Positions 1 to 12,658 of a stretch of DNA of 12,903 nt are shown piece after piece. Source of the DNA: Chrysochromulina parva (Eukaryota > Haptophyta > Prymnesiales > Chrysochromulinaceae); the NCBI GenBank assembly GCA_002887195.1, contig PJAB01001679.1, positions 1 to 12,903 on the forward strand. Reading direction: 5' to 3'. The notes under the pieces were generated by a model that worked only from the letters and a program-made list of their open reading frames with translations, made no database searches and was not told the origin of the DNA. Numbering within the stretch: the first letter of the stretch is position 1; each line of letters starts with the position of its first letter. The translations under genes were made by a program, and so were the position numbers.

Positions 1-3000
1 CGCGCGGGTGCCACCTTCTCCTCGGGCACACCGAACCGCACTGCCTCGTTGATAGCCGCCTCGAGCTCGACAGTGTTGCCTGGCTCTACCAGGGCCATTC
101 GAAGTTGGTGGTCCGCCGCGATGTGCCGCTCGTCCATTTCGTTGGCCCGCTCCTGCAGTTCAAGCGAGACGCCTGAGCGCTTGCCCTCAATTAGCACCTC
201 GCGCAGTAGCATTGGGTTGAGCACGTCGGCATCCATGATGCCCGCCAGCTTTTCGCTGAGCTCCTTGATTTCATTGAGGTGCGAGCGGAACAGAGTCACA
301 CTCGGACGTGGCAGGCCAAAGAGATCCGCCTCGTCAAGCACGCGCCCCAACTCCGTCACGTCGACCGCCGGCCGCGTGCCGTCGAGCTTCTCGAGCTTCG
401 CCTCCATCTCGACAATCTGGTCGAGCACCTCTTGCGCGGCTTGCACGTGGTCGGTCGAAGATATGCCGTCCTCAAGGCTCTTCTTGATCACGTGGCGTAG
501 CTCGTTCGGATCAAGCGGCCAGCGCCGCCGCTGGACGTCAAGCTGCACGATGCGCACCTCAAGCGTGGCCAACTTTTCGCTCGCGCCCTCCAGCTTGGTT
601 GGTGGCAGCTCCAGGTCGGCGGACGACGCATTGTGCAGGCGCATCTCAAGGTGTGCCATCTGAACAGTGCCCTGCATCGCCTCGTGCAGCTTGGTGCACG
701 CCTCATCCTGCGCGAGGTGCAGGTTCTTCTCGAGCAGCTGCCGTGCAAGATCGTCGCACGCCTCTATCACACGCTGCACGTACACACCATTCTCGGCTGG
801 CGTGCCCACACTTTTCTGCTTCTGCTTGAGTGTTGCATTGAGTTTTGCGCGCACATTGCTCACGGATTCGCGCATTGCTTTGACGGGGAGTGGCATTGCA
901 TCGTGCAGGCTCTTGAAGGCGTCTTGTGCGTCCGCCTTGATCTCGTCCTCTATCTTCAGCCACGACTTTTGCAGGATGCTCGCCACAAGGCTTGGCGGGT
1001 TGAGCGCTGGGTCGTCGGACATCAGCGCATCCTTAAGCTCTTCCATCAGATCGGAGATCATCCCTGCCGTCAGCGCCTTACCATCAAGCTGCTTGGGCTG
1101 AGACAGCTGCATGCAGATGGACGCGCGCAGCTTGTCGATCTTGGCAATGTACTCGGCGGCGCCGTCAACCGTCAACTCACGGTAGTTGGGCGACGGCGCT
1201 TCTTTTTTGGCGAGAGAGAGAGTGGGCAGGCACCATGTCTGCGGCTTGCTCTCGAAGACGTCGAAGATCTCCGTACGGATAGCGTTGCGGCTCTTGATCG
1301 CGTCGCGTTGCATTTTCGTTGTCGCGTTCTCGTCCTCCATCTCGAAAATGATGCGGTGGCACTCCTCCTCATCCGTGTTCACGTCGCGCAGAACAACGTG
1401 CAGGTTGCCAAACAGGTCGGTGCGGCTCGGCTCATCCGCTTCATCGTTCACCACCCCCGCCCCGTCCACCATATCCACCACCTCCGCTGGCGGTGGTTTG
1501 CGCACCTGTTTCGCAGCCATGATCATCTTCATAAGCGTCTGAAGGATCCTCTCCTTCGGGGGTTTGCCAAGGATCATGAGGATGACCACTTTTGAGATGA
1601 TGAGCAGCGGTGTGGCCAGCTTGATGTCGTAGGCATCTCCCTGGTCGTCCTGCCCTTCCATGTCGCAGAACGCAATGCGCGGCTCCGAGGCCTCACTGGG
1701 AATCAGCCGCGAGTACGGCAACAGCAGTGATGACAGGTGAATGCCTCGCGTGAATGAAACGTTTTGGCTGGATACACCAAAGACAGAGTCCATCTCGAGC
1801 AGCGAGTTCATCAGGTATGACTTGCCGATGCGCAGCGGGCCGCAGACGGAGATGACGTTGAGCGGCGTGTCACGATACTTCTCGAGCACCTCGTTGGCCG
1901 CCTCCTTCTGAATGTCGAGCGTGTTGCCCTTGAGCTCGAGCCACACAGTAGAGTGTGGGTTGATGCGTTGGAACACCTCCTTCACCGTGGCGTTCATGCG
2001 CTTGACCGTTGGCAGCATGACCTCCTTATCCTTTTTGTTGGTCACGAGCACGTCAGGCTTGCTCAAAAAGTCGTGCGCCTCCTGGCACGTTTTCTTGAGC
2101 CAGGTGGCAATAAGATGCTCCCGAGACGTCGAGCTGGTCTCCTCGGCGCCATGAATGCACACGATCTCGAAGCGCCGCTCTGCTTCAGACGCTGGCTTCA
2201 CTCCGTAAGGCGTACACTTTTGGAAGGAGAGCCACTGCGGGGGGGATTGGGGCAACACACTCAGTCGACACGGAAACAGCACCTGGATTAACGAGGCAAT
2301 TCACGAAGCATCATCTGGATTCCAGATGCGCTCGCGGTGTTTCAAGAATTTTGCGCGCGAGCATGCGTACCGCCTCGAGCTGCGTCCAGAAGCGATTCAT
2401 GTACCGGAGGTCGAAGAGGATGAGCACGCTCGCGCCGAGGTAGAGAAGGTTGATGTGCGGCAGCATCCCGTCGAAATCGCGCTGCTGTGCCATCGTTCGC
2501 TTGCCCTGGTACGTGCAGCTGAAGTCAAACCACACCCACCTAATCAGATGGCGGCGCGCGAGGTACTCGAGGAGCGACTTCATCTGCGCGCCCGTTGGGT
2601 CCGGGTTTTCCTGCGAGACGGCGAATAGACGAGGCATGAGAGAGGGTGGGCGGAAGTAAGGGGACTAACGTGTGGGAGACCTAATGGTTTGGGAGAGGGC
2701 TGCTTGTTCTGTTTCCGACGCTACGCGCGCGCGCACTTCAGTCTCCCAGCAGTGCGTGACCGCGACGATGGAGCCCGAGTGCACACCCAGGAATGCGTCT
2801 TCGTACGTGATGGGGATCTTTTGCACCCACGAGCCCTCGCCGTCACGCCGGTCCCATTTGAGAAGCTGCTGCAGCGACGGCATTTGCGTCAGCTTGCTCT
2901 GGCGCAGTTTGTCCGCGTCCACAAACCAAAACTCTATGCCGTCACGCGGCTTGCCTACTTCGATCTTGGGCGCCTCCTTGGGTGCAATCTCCTTCCATGC

Positions 3001-5108
3001 CTGCTTCACTCCATTGACCCTCTGCCACGCATCGTCTTGCTTGTTGACGCCCACGTCGATCGCTTGCTGCAGCTTGTCGTCGATGTCGCGGATCTCCTGC
3101 GAGCACGACGCTTGGTCAGCGGACCTCTGGGCTAGCAAACGGGAGCACACAAGGCATGGCGTGGCACGTTGCAGTCAGGAATCCTAACGAATCCTAACGA
3201 ATCCCTACATCGTACCTTCGCTACCATCTCTGTGTCGAGGTGCGCACGGTGCTCGGGCGGGAGCTGCACTTCGAGTAGCATCAGGACCGCCTCGAGCAGC
3301 GCCTCCGCCTTCTCGATGACACCCTCTGCCTCGCGCCCCGCCAGCAGCGGCTCCTTAGCCGCCTCCAGCGCCTTCTTCAGGCCCTTGGCGTTGATGGGGA
3401 CCTTGTTCACCTCGACATTAAGCGCCTTCAGTGCTTGAGTGCCCGCCTCGAGCACCTCCCTCGCCGCGACCATCGCCTCGTCCTCGCCGGGCACACGCGC
3501 TCGACTCGCTTCCATGATTGCTGCCTCGAGGACTGCAAGGTCAACCGGACGTACGCTCATGTGCTTACGGACGTCCGCGACTGCCGTCGACACTGCCTCT
3601 TGCGCTGCGCGAGCCGCCGTGAGCGCCTCACCCTTGGGCAGCTTAAGGCGCACGTACTCGTCCACCGCCGCATTCAGCTCACGCACGTATTCTGCATCGA
3701 CGGCGGGCGGGTCGCGCAGCACCCTCTCGAGGCCGCCAGTCGCCGCCTTGCCTGCCGCATAGAGCTGCTGTGCCTCTTCGAGACCTGCGATCGCCGCGAT
3801 CTCCGCGATCTCCGTCGGTGTCGCCGCGGCCTCATCTGTGTAGCCTTCGGGACCGCCCTCGGGGGTGGCGCCAAGCGATGAGTGTTTACGGACCGCCTCC
3901 TGTCGCTCAGCCTCGTCGATGACCTTCTGCAGGCCGACGAGGTCGAGCGTCTCCGCGCCCATCAATGCCTTGATCTTGAGCTCGGTCGCCAACTTAGGGT
4001 CGCTCAGGCTCGCCACGGAGCTCGCCACGTGCGATGAGATGGCTATCAGGCTTTCCGAGACTATCCGCGTGAGAATACGCTGTGGCGGGAGGGGCAGTGG
4101 TTCAACCGCTGCGCGCTGCGTCTGTGGCGGGAGGGGCAGTGGTTCAACCGCAGCGCGCTGCGTCTGTGGCGGGAGGGGCAGTGGTTCAACCGCAGCGCGC
4201 TGCGTCTGCTGATCCGCATCGCCATCAACAGCATCGCCATCACGCGGCAAGGAGTGGCGCGAGGAGGCAGACGTGGAGGCGGCGCATGGGACCGAGGAGC
4301 GGCGGCTGGAGGGCGCCCGCTCGCGCCGTGACGGCTCTCGCACGTTGCCCTCGTCGACCGACTTTTGCCTGGACACAAGTAGCTTCTGCTCAAGGGCCGC
4401 CTCAGGAAGAGTGGGTAAAGGCGTTATTGGGGAAGTCTTCAGCTTCTGCACCACCTCTTTGATGGATAATGGCGGAGTTGGTGGCTTGAGCGGTGCCGTC
4501 GCACCATCGCCACTCCTGCCTTTGGCCGCTTTGTGCGCCTCTGCCTCTGCCGTTGCGCGCCTCTGCCCCTCCTCCGCCACTGTTTTCCTTCGCTCGGACA
4601 GAAGCAAGTTGCGCTTGGCGAGCCTCTCCTCCGCCGCCATCAGCGCAGCTGAGTTGGACGCGACGCCCGCGGCCTTGGCCTCGCGCGTCGCGTTGCGGAG
4701 CTGGGAGTAGAAAAAGTCCTCATCTTCCTTCGAAGAGGGATGCACAAGCGCGCGCTTAATCGCAAACTCGATTGCCTGGCGCTTGGCTGCCTCAATGTGA
4801 TACGGGTTCACACCCAGACTCTTGGCCGCCGAGATTCCTTTCTTGAGCTCAAGCTCACAGATGTCGGCTGCATCCACGTCCGATGCATCCACAGTATTTG
4901 AGGTCGCAATCCAATGGTCCAGATCCAGCTCCACCTGCTTTCGCTTTGCAGCATTGACCAAGATGGGATCAACGCCAGCAGCTTCAGCGTTGGCGATCTT
5001 CTGTGCAAGCGTGGTTCGGTCCGTAGGCACGACAGCGAGCGCCTGCTGCAGCGCCTGGGCTTCCAACGGCGTCTTCTCCTTTTTCCCTCCCCCGAACAAA
5101 CCGCGCAT
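1..5108 (-). CDS. HET-like / GBP-like GTPase multidomain protein, 4 exons, 3' end outside window
   Basis: Spliced gene: exons 5108-3216, 3126-2737, 2610-2371 and 2234 to the left edge. All junctions are phase 0 and give at least 1585 residues without a stop. Residues 1-170 and 390-631 are alanine-rich helical hairpins; 301-342 is a proline-rich triple repeat. Residues about 749-870 form a HET-like domain: THCWE at 755-759, WFDF near 788 then a Q, an M-x-x-IN-x-LYLG stretch, and FWTQLEAW completed across the third splice. Residues about 965-1150 are a GB1/RHD3-type GTPase: P-loop GPLRIGKS 973-980, putative G2 Thr1003, G3 DMEG 1032-1035, G4 RD 1124-1125. Helical repeats follow to the edge. The start at 5108 is the only in-frame ATG before the domains; G stands at -3. 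The family role of GBPs is GTP-driven self-assembly, often in immunity; HET domains trigger cell death in fungi. The function here is inferred. The C-terminus is not visible. Confidence 0.85.
2235..2370 (-). other. intron 3 of the HET/GBP-like gene (136 bases)
   Basis: Donor GAGGCG|GTACGC at 2371/2370 and acceptor CCCCCCGCAG|TGGCTC at 2235/2234, phase 0, with a C-rich tract before the acceptor and a CGACTGAG branch-point-like element upstream. Splicing joins FWTQLEA to WLSFQ, giving the FWTQ-EAW signature that I associate with this domain family. Unspliced, translation ends at 2313-2311. Confidence 0.85.
2611..2736 (-). other. intron 2 of the HET/GBP-like gene (126 bases)
   Basis: Donor ACTGAA|GTGCGC at 2737/2736 and acceptor TCGCAG|GAAAAC at 2611/2610, phase 0. 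Splicing joins ...VTHCWETE to ENPDPTGAQ..., which restores the expected continuity of the HET-like domain. The intron is a multiple of three but carries an in-frame stop at 2667-2665, so retention truncates the protein inside the HET-like domain. Confidence 0.8.
3127..3215 (-). other. intron 1 of the HET/GBP-like gene (89 bases)
   Basis: Donor AAG|GTACGA at 3216/3215 and acceptor CCCAG|AGG at 3127/3126, both phase 0. A CTGAC branch-point-like element lies inside, in the sequence TTCCTGACTGC. If retained, it stops translation at the TAG at 3134-3132 and would leave a 658-residue protein with only the helical and proline-rich part. A nearer AG (CTAG at 3132) would put exon 2 out of frame, which is why the CAG seven bases... 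further downstream is preferred: only that choice keeps the frame that leads into the HET-like motifs. Confidence 0.8.
3179..3208. repeat. three tandem 10-base units inside intron 1
   Basis: The plus strand shows gaatcctaac at 3179-3188 and 3189-3198, and gaatccctac at 3199-3208. The array sits close to the donor of the 89-base intron and makes up a third of it. No function is evident; it may simply be slippage. Confidence 0.85.
4081..4206 (-). repeat. three tandem 42-base units coding for a proline-rich linker
   Basis: Units at 4081-4122, 4123-4164 and 4165-4206 are identical except for one base in the first unit. On the minus strand they encode QTQRAAVEPLPLPP three times (residues 301-342 of the HET/GBP-like protein). 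The near identity, including synonymous sites, points to recent expansion or active homogenisation. The unit length is a multiple of three, so copy-number changes keep the frame. Confidence 0.97.
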
Positions 5109-6622: not shown

Positions 6623-8209
6623 CTAACCGGTCGACCGCGTTCGCCGCAGCCCCCCAGTCGCCTTTCCAGCCGCCTGCCCCCCTGCGGCTGCGCGGCCCGA
6701 GATTTCAGTGTGTTCCTGTGTCCATCTATGCGCTTCTTGCGCGGCCTGCAGGTACGCGTGGTCTAATTCGGGTGCCATGGCCCGTCGCTCCGCATTGGAC
6801 TCAAAGAGGAGCCCGAGGCTTGCGTCGCCGAGTTCTGGCAGCGCGTGCCGTACTGCCGGCCGGACGCCCGATTTAGGCGGCGCCTTCGAAAGTCGTACCA
6901 TCGAGAGCTGTGCCTCCAGCTCGGTAGCGAGATCCGCCGCCGCCCGCTCGTCCTCGCGCCGTGTGGCTGCACCGCTCGTGCACATGCCATCTGGATCGGT
7001 GACAGGGTTGGCGGCGCTGGCAGACCTCCCTTGTTTGGTAATCCGCTTGGCAGCCGTTCCATGCGGCCATTGATCAGACCTCCCTTCTTTGGTAATCCGC
7101 TTGGCAGCCGTTGCATGCGGCCATTGATCGAGTTGCGCTGCAGAGCTCTCGAGTCGATTGGCATAGAGGCGCAACAGTACGAGCCAGTAGATGCTGCGCG
7201 CCCGGCGCGAGAGGACGCGGTGTGCCAGCTCGCTCGCGCGTCGACCCATGTGCTCGAGCCTACCGGCCGCCGCCTCCGTGCTCAGCCGCGGAAGCAACTC
7301 AAGTAGATCTTGAGGTGACGAAATCCAAAAGGGGATATAGTGGACGTGGGGGACGAAGGCCGAGCCAAAGTAGCTCCAAAAGTACGACTCCATCTTGAGC
7401 ACCACCGAGTTGGTCGAGAGCAGGCATTGCAACCGACTCGACGCGGTGAAACCGTCGAGGTCGATCAAGAAGCGAACTGCGGCGTGTTCGGGGATGGGCA
7501 CGCGGGCGGCGAGGGAGAGCGGCCGAGCGGGGCGCGGCAGGTCGCTCGCTCGCTCCTCGCCGCGCACAAACACGTCGTGCGCCGCATCGTACGCTGTGAA
7601 GCGAACGTCGAGCGCGTCGCTCGCATTCTGATCACTGAGGTGCGCGAGTAGGAGACGGGCGCACTTCATGAACGGGTTAGGACCACAGAAGAGGGAGCCA
7701 CGCCACAGGGCGCGGTCTTGCTTGGAGCTCCACGGGTAGTGTTCGCGATAGTACTGCGGACCGGGCAGCCGATCGAATCCGAGCGTGCGAAAGTAAGCGT
7801 CGGGCATCAGCACGTCAGCTGCGGCTCGCGTTTGGAAAAAGGAGAAGACGGGCGCGGGGTGCAGCTGCAGCGGAGCGACGGGCTCGTCGAAAGTGTTCAC
7901 GTTCATGACGAGGCTTGGCACCTCGTACTCGGACGATAGCTCGATGAGGTCCTCCACGAGCGCGTGCAGGAGCGGATTGCGGCCACCGCGGAAGGCTCGG
8001 AGCCAGAAGACAGTGCCGTTGTGGATGCCGAGGGTAGCACGCGTATCGCTTTCGGGCGCCTCTTCGAGCCGAGAGCGCGAGATAGTCTGCGGAGCCCAGT
8101 GCTGCATGTCTCGCAGCAGCTGCGTGTGCAGCGATGGCGGAAGCACGGTGGAGAAGGGAGCACACGAAGCCGAGCCCCTAACCCCGACGCCATCATCGCC
8201 CGCTTGCAT
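6623..8209 (-). CDS. CAP10/GT90-type glycosyltransferase
   Basis: A protein of 528 residues; ATG at 8209-8207 with AAA before it, TAG at 6625-6623. Residues about 55-350 follow the CAP10 (GT90, POGLUT/Rumi-like) pattern: NVNTFDEP (103-110) at the place of the family's ND-P, PVFSFF (120-125), a DVLMPDAYF stretch (132-140), WSSK...ALWRGS (160-172), then LIDLDGFTASSRL (248-260), LLSTNSVVLK (263-272) and PHVHYIPFW (287-295). GT90 enzymes transfer glucose or xylose from nucleotide sugars. The C-terminal 170 residues are low in complexity and carry an 18-residue tandem duplication. No signal peptide or membrane anchor is seen, which is unusual for an ER/Golgi family. An upstream exon is possible, because a pyrimidine-rich run and CAG lie just before the ATG (about 8220-8250), but I cannot confirm one. 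Confidence 0.85.
   Translation of the reverse strand: MQAGDDGVGVRGSASCAPFSTVLPPSLHTQLLRDMQHWAPQTISRSRLEEAPESDTRATLGIHNGTVFWLRAFRGGRNPLLHALVEDLIELSSEYEVPSLVMNVNTFDEPVAPLQLHPAPVFSFFQTRAAADVLMPDAYFRTLGFDRLPGPQYYREHYPWSSKQDRALWRGSLFCGPNPFMKCARLLLAHLSDQNASDALDVRFTAYDAAHDVFVRGEERASDLPRPARPLSLAARVPIPEHAAVRFLIDLDGFTASSRLQCLLSTNSVVLKMESYFWSYFGSAFVPHVHYIPFWISSPQDLLELLPRLSTEAAAGRLEHMGRRASELAHRVLSRRARSIYWLVLLRLYANRLESSAAQLDQWPHATAAKRITKEGRSDQWPHGTAAKRITKQGRSASAANPVTDPDGMCTSGAATRREDERAAADLATELEAQLSMVRLSKAPPKSGVRPAVRHALPELGDASLGLLFESNAERRAMAPELDHAYLQAAQEAHRWTQEHTEISGRAAAGGQAAGKATGGLRRTRSTG
7023..7130 (-). repeat. tandem 54-base duplication in the glycosyltransferase tail
   Basis: Two adjacent copies, 7023-7076 and 7077-7130, differ at only a few bases. 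They encode DQWPHATAAKRITKEGRS and DQWPHGTAAKRITKQGRS (residues 361-378 and 379-396), just after the catalytic domain. The basic, in-frame unit looks like a recent duplication in a tolerant linker. Confidence 0.95.
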
Positions 8210-8379: not shown

Positions 8380-9861
8380 ATGCCGCGTCGCCAAGTAATC
8401 CGCACATGCTCCGCCTGCGGCGGCTGCCTTCTTGCCGAGGACTTCGTCGGCCGTGCCGTTGGTCTCATGGACCGCGCACTCGCGTTTCACACCAGCATGG
8501 CGTGCTCGAGCGAGTCGCACGCCATCCAAGCGATCGCCGAGCAGCTCAAAGCGGTAGTGGAAGAGGTAGACGGTGGCACGAAGCGGAATTTGCATGCACT
8601 CCCATGGCCTGACGAACAGCATCCACTTAGTTTCTGCGCGAGACACGGGCTCAATGACCTCGGCCTCAGGCTTCTCTCCAGCGGCCTCGTGGAGCGCGAT
8701 CAATTGGAATGCACACATCTCGGTGGCCTCTCGCCCGTGCACCGAGCCGCGAGCAGCGACCGCAGCTTACCCTTGTTAGAGGCGCTGCTCCATGCAGGCG
8801 CGAGCCCGCGTGCACGAAGCCAGGACGGCACCACAAAGGCCGACGCGGGCGGGCGTACGCCTCTTCATGTGGCGGCTCAACACGGCGCTTGTCTAGCGGT
8901 GCGCCGGCTGCTTGTGGCGTGCCCGGTGGTCGCAGCGGTCGCCGACTGGGACGGCTGCTACCCGGCCCAAGCGGCCTGGATTCGAGGGCACGCAGCACTT
9001 GCGCTCGAGCTCGCGCAGGCCGCCGAGGCGGTGGCCGACGCCGCTGAAGAGGAGGCGCGGGCTGTCGACCCGTCACGTACCGACGCTGAGCGAGAAGAAG
9101 AAGCTGAACAGCTGCGGGCCATGGTGCGCGCCGTGCGTGCGGCGGGCGGCGTGTGCGAGCCACGCGAGGCGGCCGTGCAACGCTCGCTGCTCGAGATGAC
9201 GTACGTGGAGCGGGAGCGGGAGCGTCTCACTCTCGCGGGGCGGCGGCGGCTGCAGGCCGTTCATCTGGTGCGAGAGCTCTTCACACCATCCGAGTGTGAA
9301 TGGCTGCTCGGGCAGCTGCAGCAGGCGGCTGCATACTATGGGTGGCAGCACGCGCGCCATAAGCACTACGCGACCGAGGACGTGCCCGTGTGGCGTGCTC
9401 CCGCGGCGGCATCATTTGTCTTCGAACGGATGGCTTCCGTTTTGGGGCCGACGATGAGCTCGTGCTTTGGAGTGCCCGACACGGCGCTCCGGTTGCATGA
9501 GTGCTTCGGCGTGCGATACGAGCCGGCCGGCCAGCCGGCACTCGCCATGCACCGCGACGGCACCATGTTCTCCTTCAATGTCACACTAAACGACGCGAGC
9601 TCCTTTGCAGGTGGCGGCACATGCTTCAATACGCCCACGCAGCTCTGCACCTGGCCCAGTGCCGAGGCAGCAAGGAGGCAGCAAGAGGTCGGGGTTGACG
9701 CGATGTCGGCGGCAGAGACTACGGTGACGACGCTCGTGCGCGGTGGTCAGGGCGACTGCTTGCTGCACTGCGGTCAGCTGCTGCACGGGGGCTGCACTGT
9801 GAGCGAGGGCGTTCGTTTCATCTTAGTGGGCTTCGTTGCGGAGTGGTGGCAGGCGGATTAG
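8380..9861 (+). CDS. ankyrin-repeat protein with prolyl-4-hydroxylase-like 2OG-Fe(II) oxygenase domain
   Basis: A protein of 493 residues from the first in-frame ATG (G at -3). Residues about 80-200 hold ankyrin repeats: one weak at HPLSFCARHGLNDLG, one at GLSPVHRAASS..LLEALLHAGASP (116-144), one clear at GRTPLHVAAQHG..AVRRLLVACP (158-182), then a decayed one. A charged helix follows (about 215-285). Residues about 290-490 form the dioxygenase: metal ligands H391 and D393 in MHRDG, H469 in LLHGG, and the 2-oxoglutarate-binding arginine R479 in GVRFIL. GGG at 411-413 precedes the TCF strand. The family hydroxylates proline in proteins using Fe(II) and 2-oxoglutarate; ankyrin repeats would choose the partner. 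No signal peptide is seen, so it probably acts in the cytosol or nucleus. A cysteine cluster (CSACGGC) sits at the N-terminus. An upstream coding exon cannot be excluded. Confidence 0.85.
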   Translation: MPRRQVIRTCSACGGCLLAEDFVGRAVGLMDRALAFHTSMACSSESHAIQAIAEQLKAVVEEVDGGTKRNLHALPWPDEQHPLSFCARHGLNDLGLRLLSSGLVERDQLECTHLGGLSPVHRAASSDRSLPLLEALLHAGASPRARSQDGTTKADAGGRTPLHVAAQHGACLAVRRLLVACPVVAAVADWDGCYPAQAAWIRGHAALALELAQAAEAVADAAEEEARAVDPSRTDAEREEEAEQLRAMVRAVRAAGGVCEPREAAVQRSLLEMTYVERERERLTLAGRRRLQAVHLVRELFTPSECEWLLGQLQQAAAYYGWQHARHKHYATEDVPVWRAPAAASFVFERMASVLGPTMSSCFGVPDTALRLHECFGVRYEPAGQPALAMHRDGTMFSFNVTLNDASSFAGGGTCFNTPTQLCTWPSAEAARRQQEVGVDAMSAAETTVTTLVRGGQGDCLLHCGQLLHGGCTVSEGVRFILVGFVAEWWQAD

Positions 9862-10111: not shown

Positions 10112-12658
10112 ATGGCGGTCAAGAAGCAGAAGCGAACGGGACGGCGCATCCCACCTTCGGTAGACATGTTGGCCGCATGCGAATCCACAGGCGTGAAGGG
10201 GCTGGCGGTTGCGTTGCTCGGCATTTTTGATACAGACGGCAGCGCACAGCTCTCACGCGGGGAGTTCACTGTAAATGCGGGTGCACTTGGGTACGAGGCA
10301 AGCGATTCTGCGTGGGCCTCGCTTCGCTCACGCTTCGGGCTCACGCGACCCAATGCGCCCCAGGAGCGACTAGGCTCACCCAGGTCGGACTCTGATGAGC
10401 ATCTCGACCTGGGCCTGATCGCGGACCACTTCAAGTCCAAATACGACCCTATTCTTGAAGGCATTTTGCGCCAGATGATGGGTGGAATGGTCTACCTCTC
10501 TGCGCGCGTGACCAGCCTCGAGGAGGTGCTGGACCAGGTGCACGGCGCATCCTTGCGCGACCGCGAGCGTAAGTTGGAGGCAGTGGTGCGACGCTGGCAC
10601 CATGGCATCCTTTCCGTCGCCTTTGATGGATGGTGCAAGGTAGTCAAGGGACAACGCGAGCTTCTCAATCGCACCGCGCGGCACTTGTTAAACGCGCAGC
10701 TGTCCATGGTGTGGAAGAGGTGGCGCGAGGTGGTGGCGGAAGCGCAGGAGCAAAGGCAGATTGTGGCCAAGGCGCTGGGACGCATGCGCAATCGCGTGGT
10801 AGCGCGCTCATTCGATGCATGGAAATCCGTGTGGGAGGACGTGAGAAGACAGTGGGAAGTCGCCGCTCGTGCTGTACAGCGCATGCGCAATCGCCATTCC
10901 GCTATCGCCTTCGAGACCTGGCGCGACGCGGTCGAGACTGCAAAGGCGCACCGCGCAGCTGTGTTGAAGGTTCTCGTCCGCATGCGCAATCGACTGCTTC
11001 ACGTGGCCTTCGAGGGATGGCATCATGCCACGCAGGCAGCAAAGTGGCAGCGTGAGCAGATGGCGCGAGTCACGGCCCGTCTTCGCAATCTCGCCGTGGT
11101 TTTGTCTTTCGAGGCTTGGCGTGACGACGTGCAGGCAACCGTCAACTCGCGCCGAGAGGTGCTGCGCAGGGTAGGCAACAGAATGGTCAACCGCACACTT
11201 ACCCTCGCGTTTGAGCGATGGAAGGGCCAGGTGGTTGAGCAGAAACAGCAGATCGCGCGCGCGAAGCAGCATGCCGCTCGAATGATCAACGGCCTGCTCG
11301 GGAAATGCTTCGACGCATGGACTGCCTTTGAAAAGGAACTCAAGCGCATCAAACGTCGCGCCACTTACGCCATCGGCCCAGGTCGCATCCTTTTCATCAC
11401 GTACTCCACCTGGGCAGCGCACGTACGGGAGGTGCGTCAACTCGGTCTCATCGATTCGCGGCTTGCGGCGAACATCGAGGCGTACCTCGACGCCAAAGGA
11501 CTAGCGCTCGATGTGATCACCAAGGAAGTCGTCTTCCTCGAGCGAAAGGTGGCGAGGCTACGCATCGATCTGGACGAGCGGATGGCAGAGGCACGATTGC
11601 TAGAGGAGCGCATGCTGGAGCAATTCAAATTGGAGGCAGAGCGTTCTCGAAAGCTTGAGGAGGATCGGCTGAAGCGCGAGGCTGAGCGCCAGAATGAGCA
11701 GCGCGTGAAGCAGGTGATCAAACGCATGCTGTTCCGGGCGTTGTGGACCTGCTTCGAGGCCTGGGTGCTAGCTGTTAAGGAGGCCAATGCAAAGCTGCAG
11801 CTCGCGGAAAGCTCGCGACGGAATGTCAGCCTGTCAAAGGGCTGGCGCCGTTGGAAGAAAGTGTGGGAGGTACTGCACGAGCCCAACCTCAAGAAGAAGC
11901 TCGAGACCAAGGCGAGGCGAGATCGCGACGCGCAGTTGCTGGCAGGGCTGCGCAGTGTGGGCTCAACATGGTTTCAGGAGATGCAGCTGCGTGCGGATAG
12001 CATTCGGCCACACTATAGCTCGCACCTGGTGACCACTGAATACCTTCTTCCCGCAGATGGCTCAGGTATCGTCAGTCAATCGACGTCAACGGTTGCGCCC
12101 TCGCCTGGAGCGAAGCACGAGGCGCCGGACGCTCACACGATCACGTCGGTGCTCGAGTTGATGGATCAGCGCTACATTCGCATGGCCACGGGCGCCCGCG
12201 GCGGCGCACAACTCGACCACGACCTGCGTCTGCTTGAACAGCGCTTAGGCAACTTATGTCGGGCCATCGAACTTGACCCATACATGAAGCACATTCTCGC
12301 TAATATCATGATGGACCCTACCCTCCGTACGACCATCGATAAGTCTGAGCGAGAACAGTCCGTTCCACCGCGCCCACTCAGGCCACTACGCGCTCCTCCA
12401 CACTTTGACTTTGACGCATTGTCGGTCGAACAGATCGAGAAGATGATGGATGGTGCTGGAGCGCCTGCTCGATGGCTACGTCCTTCGCAATCACGCGCCA
12501 ACCTGCGGACGGGTGTCAGCGCGCCCACGTTGACACCAGTACGCGATACACGCAACACAACCGCTCCACCCGATGGCGACGGCTCACCTGTCTTCTCGAT
12601 CAACAGCCTCCTGCAAGAACGCCTCATGCACTCGCGCGTGGGGGACTCTAGAGGATAG
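10112..12658 (+). CDS. Sfi1-type centrin-binding repeat protein with EF-hand-like loop
   Basis: A single-exon protein of 848 residues. The start CAACATGGCG is a strong eukaryotic context; upstream in-frame codons include no ATG. Residues 40-51 form an EF-hand-like loop (DTDGSAQLSRGE, ligands at 1, 3, 5, 12). Residues about 155-440 hold nine repeats, each ending in a hydrophobic-F-x-x-W motif, with the tryptophans at 174, 204, 237, 270, 303, 336, 370, 403 and 434, spaced 30-34 and mostly 33. This is the Sfi1 pattern, a long helix that binds one centrin per repeat at the centrosome, basal body or spindle pole. Residues about 468-535 are a charged coiled coil; two more repeat-like tryptophans lie at 551 and 581; a helical segment (675-745) and a disordered tail complete it. 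Likely role: basal-body or contractile-fibre scaffold. The exact orthologue is not identifiable by eye. Confidence 0.88.
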   Translation: MAVKKQKRTGRRIPPSVDMLAACESTGVKGLAVALLGIFDTDGSAQLSRGEFTVNAGALGYEASDSAWASLRSRFGLTRPNAPQERLGSPRSDSDEHLDLGLIADHFKSKYDPILEGILRQMMGGMVYLSARVTSLEEVLDQVHGASLRDRERKLEAVVRRWHHGILSVAFDGWCKVVKGQRELLNRTARHLLNAQLSMVWKRWREVVAEAQEQRQIVAKALGRMRNRVVARSFDAWKSVWEDVRRQWEVAARAVQRMRNRHSAIAFETWRDAVETAKAHRAAVLKVLVRMRNRLLHVAFEGWHHATQAAKWQREQMARVTARLRNLAVVLSFEAWRDDVQATVNSRREVLRRVGNRMVNRTLTLAFERWKGQVVEQKQQIARAKQHAARMINGLLGKCFDAWTAFEKELKRIKRRATYAIGPGRILFITYSTWAAHVREVRQLGLIDSRLAANIEAYLDAKGLALDVITKEVVFLERKVARLRIDLDERMAEARLLEERMLEQFKLEAERSRKLEEDRLKREAERQNEQRVKQVIKRMLFRALWTCFEAWVLAVKEANAKLQLAESSRRNVSLSKGWRRWKKVWEVLHEPNLKKKLETKARRDRDAQLLAGLRSVGSTWFQEMQLRADSIRPHYSSHLVTTEYLLPADGSGIVSQSTSTVAPSPGAKHEAPDAHTITSVLELMDQRYIRMATGARGGAQLDHDLRLLEQRLGNLCRAIELDPYMKHILANIMMDPTLRTTIDKSEREQSVPPRPLRPLRAPPHFDFDALSVEQIEKMMDGAGAPARWLRPSQSRANLRTGVSAPTLTPVRDTRNTTAPPDGDGSPVFSINSLLQERLMHSRVGDSRG
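10565..11425 (+). repeat. degenerate ~99-base repeats coding for nine centrin-binding units
   Basis: The repeats remain visible at DNA level in the middle: cgcatgcgcaatcg begins at 10781, 10880 and 10979, exactly 99 bases apart, and encodes RMRNR in each unit. Outer units have diverged more. This implies growth by duplication from the middle of the array. Confidence 0.9.

Follow-up and report, generated by a model that had tools for sequence, protein, structure and literature searches.

Proteins of the HET, TIR and GBP families, known from fungal allorecognition, immunity across life and vertebrate cell-autonomous immunity respectively, have so far been studied apart. GBPs and TIRs work by clustering, and TIR domains carry a catalytic helix-C glutamate in a W-x3-E motif. 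PMC4986451 describes a kinship between HET and TIR domains and reports HET homologues in Haptophyceae, so the presence of HET-like domains in haptophytes is not new; in Aureococcus, the GBP genes are described as declining 30 minutes after infection by a giant virus, and a role in defence is proposed for them (PMC5917014). The biochemical activity of the HET domain has been named as still to be established (PMC10197012). Here we describe a gene of the haptophyte Chrysochromulina parva (assembly GCA_002887195.1) that encodes a HET-like domain and a GBP-type GTPase in one protein. The first resembles domains that signal cell death in fungi and animals, and the second is of a type with which mammals fight intracellular infection. 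The gene lies on contig PJAB01001679.1 (C1679), whose entire 12,903 nucleotides form the window analyzed here, within an assembly of 45.07 Mb and 2,199 contigs that was also searched.

Results

One gene joins a HET-like domain to a GBP-type GTPase

The original prediction, which placed both domains in one protein, holds. All the motifs it quoted were found on the minus strand, in one frame once three introns are removed, and the gene, starting with an ATG at 5108, reads for 1585 residues up to the edge of the contig without a stop. Since the window is the complete contig and the gene runs off its end, the C-terminus of the protein is missing. The three introns are GT...AG and phase 0 (89, 126 and 136 bases). 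Junctions 2 and 3 lie within the HET-like domain and are supported, because the homologues P0001 and P0002 align straight and ungapped across both; the start codon and junction 1 (residues 631/632) are inferred, the latter from frame and GT/AG alone. The end of the HET-like domain and the GTPase share a single open exon, and a reading as two separate genes is therefore rejected. The features of the gene are as follows.

3216..5108, minus strand: exon 1, residues 1-631, a helix-rich N-terminal region (open frame and GT donor; ATG at 5108 and junction predicted)
3127..3215, minus strand: intron 1, 89 bases, GT...AG, predicted
2737..3126, minus strand: exon 2, residues 632-761, first third of the HET-like domain, last residues THCWETE (frame, GT/AG)
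2611..2736, minus strand: intron 2, 126 bases, GT...AG, junction supported by homologues
2371..2610, minus strand: exon 3, residues 762-841, middle of the HET-like domain with VWFD... and RFWTQLEA (frame, GT/AG)
2235..2370, minus strand: intron 3, 136 bases, GT...AG, junction supported by homologues
1..2234, minus strand: exon 4, residues 842-1585 and on, end of the HET-like domain, GTPase and C-terminal helical region (single open frame to the contig end)
1953..2943, minus strand: HET-like domain, residues about 693-935, spanning introns 2 and 3 (22-copy alignment and model of the homologue P0009)
2757-2743, minus strand: THCWE, HET-like motif
from 2535, minus strand: VWFDFSC, HET-like motif
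2394-2371, minus strand: RFWTQLEA, HET-like motif; the next residue, W, is at 2234, past intron 3
1008..1946, minus strand: GBP-type GTPase domain, residues about 938-1250 (Pfam PF02263, PDB sequence matches and a model of P0085 against PDB)
1841-1818, minus strand: G1 P-loop GPLRIGKS, with arginine in the place of the GBP arginine finger (aligned to GBP5)
1664-1650, minus strand: G3 motif DMEGQ, of the D-x-E-G type
1391-1383, minus strand: G4 motif LRD, of the R-D type

These borders differ from those first proposed. The HET-like domain had been placed at residues 700-870 and followed by a linker of about 100 residues; in the family alignment the stretch 870-960 is conserved up to about 935, and that part belongs to the domain. 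The span had been given as 1325..2775, whereas the domain starts near 2943 and the predicted gene near 5108.

Environmental open reading frames P0075 and P0080 are near-identical to exon 2, and P0065, with 77 member sequences, is 98% identical to exon 3. Exon 1 also contains a proline-rich 14-residue repeat in three copies, encoded by in-frame 42-base repeats (window 4078-4203) that read QTQRAAVEPLPLPP. With a model built from three N-terminal units, the N- and C-terminal flanks did not emerge as copies of one repeat, the C-terminal match scoring 4.8 bits and the best shuffle 8.9.

The GTPase is of the GBP class

The Pfam GBP family (PF02263) matches the whole protein at 34.2 bits (E 1.9e-8) and the domain at 39 bits, against a cut-off of 21.1. 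The SFTRG motif is present on the minus strand in the same spliced frame, and the arginine of GPLRIGKS occupies what we take to be the position of the GBP arginine finger, R48 of hGBP1. Among PDB sequences GBP5, GBP2 and GBP1 come first, RNF112 and Sey1 follow far behind, and no atlastin appears at E<=0.01. The predicted model of P0085 fits the GBP/atlastin fold. Neither NACHT nor NB-ARC was found among Pfam matches at E<=1 in the 1585 residues read.

The fusion recurs in other proteins

A search with residues 690-1250 returned P0001 (E 4.7e-150, 42% identity, 89% of the query) and P0002 (E 6.0e-134, 36%, 99%), together with P0003, a GTPase alone. A second search, with an alignment of three fusions as query, returned 18 proteins. 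These include P0085 and P0086 (41% and 37% identity, 92-93% covered) as well as P0087 and P0088, close kin with an incomplete HET-like part (45% and 44% identity, 75% and 62% covered). The pairing is thus present in six further proteins, and it is not due to chance, because the GBP match is strong (E 1.9e-8) and the same pairing stands in P0001 and P0002. In P0001, P0002 and P0086 the GTPase is in turn followed by another HET-like domain, which in P0086 is cut short. P0071, probably a strain variant, spans the junction between HET-like domain and GTPase and is 91% identical over the aligned part. Among the relatives that lack a HET-like domain are P0092, P0093 and Polarella glacialis P0094 (incomplete frame). 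In a GTPase tree of 17 rows the seven fused rows are ungrouped (two changes), but the data are also compatible with one clade for all of them (p-AU 0.219), and the fusion may have had a single origin.

The architecture had been put forward as undescribed. The HET-like and GBP pairing was not found in the literature searched, which covers few subscription papers or preprints, and we know of no GBP that carries an N-terminal HET-like domain; the same architecture is found again among other public sequences.

The HET-like domain is a likely distant relative of TIR

Strictly conserved positions across the HET-like family are H, W, D, R-F-W and E, and the C-terminal stretch ends in a conserved ..DxxVTNxxDKxxxLP. 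In the predicted structure of the homologue P0009 (pLDDT 95.9), the invariant glutamate of RFWTxxEAW sits on the helix after the third strand, with W-x3-E spacing. Moderate evidence from such modelling suggests a TIR-like fold, and the domain is likely a distant relative of TIR. In an ungapped block test, the pairing of SHRW with the 'SH' block of TIR scored highest of 30,879 block pairs; for the RFWTxxE block the expected register ranks second (3.24 against 5.13), and the figure of 38 in 2000 shuffles belongs to the other, unexpected register. The profile-profile link to TIR is weak.

In Pfam, the window domain matches no family at E<=1, neither HET (PF06985) nor TIR (PF01582/PF13676). The HET cut-off of 22.5 bits is not reached by P0002 (16.1 bits) or P0001 (14.8 bits); HET matches 2 of 22 domain copies (best E 3.5e-4), and no TIR family matches any of the 22 at E<=1. 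Filing the domain as Pfam HET or TIR is accordingly ruled out. The kinship to HET and TIR claimed at the outset has moderate support as regards the predicted, TIR-like fold, but the domain is a relative of these families and not a filed member, being below the HET cut-off and without a Pfam TIR match. PADLOC returned only SIR2 (E 0.023, 12 bits), which we read as a chance match, and no match for the GTPase.

HET-like domains form a modular family in the assembly

At least 50 exon-level matches to the HET-like domain lie on 42 contigs of the assembly, the window included; 60 candidates were scored, and the count is a lower bound. Partners were surveyed at 27 loci besides that of the window, and 20 frames were scanned with Pfam, of which 12 hold a partner domain above cut-off and eight hold none. 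The partners include Arm (L011, L021), HEAT (L013, L017), ankyrin (L028), SAP (L020, L029, L034) and SH3_15 (L019). In L008 (C378), an open frame of 6362 residues, an NAD:arginine ADP-ribosyltransferase (E 2.5e-13) precedes the HET-like domain. In L022/L044 (C1210) one frame encodes first a HET-like domain and then Pfam TIR_2 (E 6.6e-8, residues 727-806), two related effector types within one protein, and in L027 (C1295) the HET-like domain is followed by an AIG1-family GTPase (E 3e-8). The environmental protein P0067 has a HET-like start 92% identical to that of L027, behind a RING finger. Long hydrophobic N-termini were seen by eye in L010, L012, L014 and L016. The HET-like frame L031 shares 80% identity over 447 aligned positions with P0015, a sequence attributed to the Chrysochromulina OHIO genome; this one gene would place the assembly with a haptophyte near Chrysochromulina.

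The assembly also holds 17 TIR_2 matches and four GBP matches, and among the GBPs only that of the window carries a HET-like domain: at the remaining three loci (L001, L002, L003) neither a HET-like match by tblastn nor a HET motif was found. By eye, one of these three is long and soluble-looking, L002 has hydrophobic C-terminal segments and L003 hydrophobic N-terminal ones. A six-frame scan of the assembly with Pfam HET gave no match at E<=0.01, but the control was also without a match and absence is not proven. Beyond the assembly, two relatives were confirmed among 38 prokaryotic pattern matches, both actinobacterial, none among 24 and 25 pattern matches in viral contigs, and none in plasmids.

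Neighbouring genes

6623-8206, minus strand: glycosyltransferase family 90 gene (PF05686, E 2.3e-24)
8383-9861, plus strand: ankyrin repeats, then a 2-oxoglutarate/Fe dioxygenase-like end (HRDG..., by eye); in Pfam, ankyrins only above cut-off
10112-12658, plus strand: 848-residue frame with repeated FxxWxxxV-type units, Sfi1-repeat-like (by eye), no Pfam family

Discussion

Building on the observed fusion, its motifs and recurrence and its modular family, and on predicted folds, we tentatively read the protein as a GTP-gated immune switch, an infection alarm that couples a GBP-type GTPase to a HET-like domain of probable, distant TIR kinship. On a putative pathogen-linked trigger, the GTPase would take up GTP and either form dimers or build assemblies on a membrane or target, bringing several HET-like domains together. 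The clustered domains may then cleave nicotinamide adenine dinucleotide (NAD+) through the invariant glutamate of RFWTxxEAW or, alternatively, call in further HET-like and TIR proteins encoded by this genome, and the outcome would be cell arrest or death. The doubling of HET-like domains and their exchange among immune-type partners fit this clustering scheme. A broader version, which we hold with greater reserve, is that phytoplankton have a third immune-switch design: a GBP GTPase would replace the NLR/STAND motor, and GTP-driven GBP cages would bring together HET-like NADases of the TIR type, in some proteins with one on each side of the GTPase, killing the infected cell before a virus or parasite spreads. 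It would be part of a large mix-and-match HET-like arsenal with AIG1, ADP-ribosyltransferases, TIR and repeat sensors.

It is possible, if doubtful, that the protein is instead a GTP-regulated scaffold whose HET-like domain is a non-enzymatic docking module, the effector activity residing in recruited HET-like or TIR proteins. The abundance of HET-like copies and the variety of their partners within a single assembly, as well as the doubled domains flanking the GTPase in P0001, P0002 and P0086, are consistent with docking, and PMC4986451 proposes that HET domains act by recruiting other HET proteins. Against it, H, W, D, R-F-W and E are conserved as strictly as would be expected of an active site, although a binding surface could show the same. 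Unlikely is a membrane-remodelling GTPase of the atlastin or plant GBPL type, with a HET-like domain that only regulates or targets it and no immune role: the order of the PDB matches, with RNF112 and Sey1 distant and atlastin missing at E<=0.01, and the immune-like partners of the HET-like domain argue against it. Still less probable is an unrelated domain of TIR-like outline, for example a deoxyribosyltransferase-type nucleotide enzyme, fused to a GTPase with a metabolic role, since deoxyribosyltransferase-type folds account for just 2 of 25 rows and the weak HET matches (P0001, P0002 and 2 of 22 copies), with the published HET-TIR kinship, favour TIR. An artefact of gene prediction or assembly, either two neighbouring genes or a decayed copy, is largely refuted: the gene model is predicted, as is junction 1, and the contig ends inside the gene, but a single open exon encodes both the HET-like end and the GTPase, the same domain order is kept in P0071 and in six other fused proteins, and the 1585 spliced codons contain no stop.

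On the immune-switch reading, a recurring protein that joins these families allows a direct test of whether GTP-driven assembly switches on a HET/TIR-type effector, and would help to settle what the HET domain does biochemically. For phytoplankton, whose blooms are ended by viruses and of whose immune machinery little is known, it would provide a concrete candidate set of defence genes.

Comparison with known systems

GBP1, GBP2 and GBP5 are the top PDB sequence matches and share with the window protein the G1 motif with its arginine, the D-E-G of G3, the R-D of G4, the fold and the helical continuation; unlike them, the window protein bears an N-terminal HET-like domain, and identity in structure alignments is 14-20%. 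L027 has the same HET-like domain followed by an immune-type GTPase, but of another family (AIG1), and its HET-like copy is among the more divergent (35% identity over the match). L035:2356-3756 (Streptomyces cyaneus) and L036:1990-4212 (Pedococcus sp.) are possible prokaryotic relatives of the HET-like domain, judging from the shared motifs VSHRW...PDP..., YDY/FDY and ..RGWLVFE / RAWCVLE; in contrast to the window protein, no GTPase domain was recognised in them, and no Pfam HET or TIR family matched. The TIR NADases (SARM1, plant TIR-NLRs and bacterial TIR proteins) probably resemble the window domain in predicted fold and in the helix-C W-x3-E. The window domain differs in its length of about 240 residues, its extension ending VTNxxDKxxxLP and its lack of a Pfam TIR match, and its NADase role is putative. 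Finally, the fungal HET-NACHT-WD40 proteins (HET-E, HET-D and HET-R) likewise combine a HET-related domain with a nucleotide switch, and repeat domains occur in the wider family of both. The window domain falls under the Pfam HET cut-off, and its switch is a GBP-type GTPase rather than a NACHT/STAND NTPase, for which the GBP module would be a stand-in.
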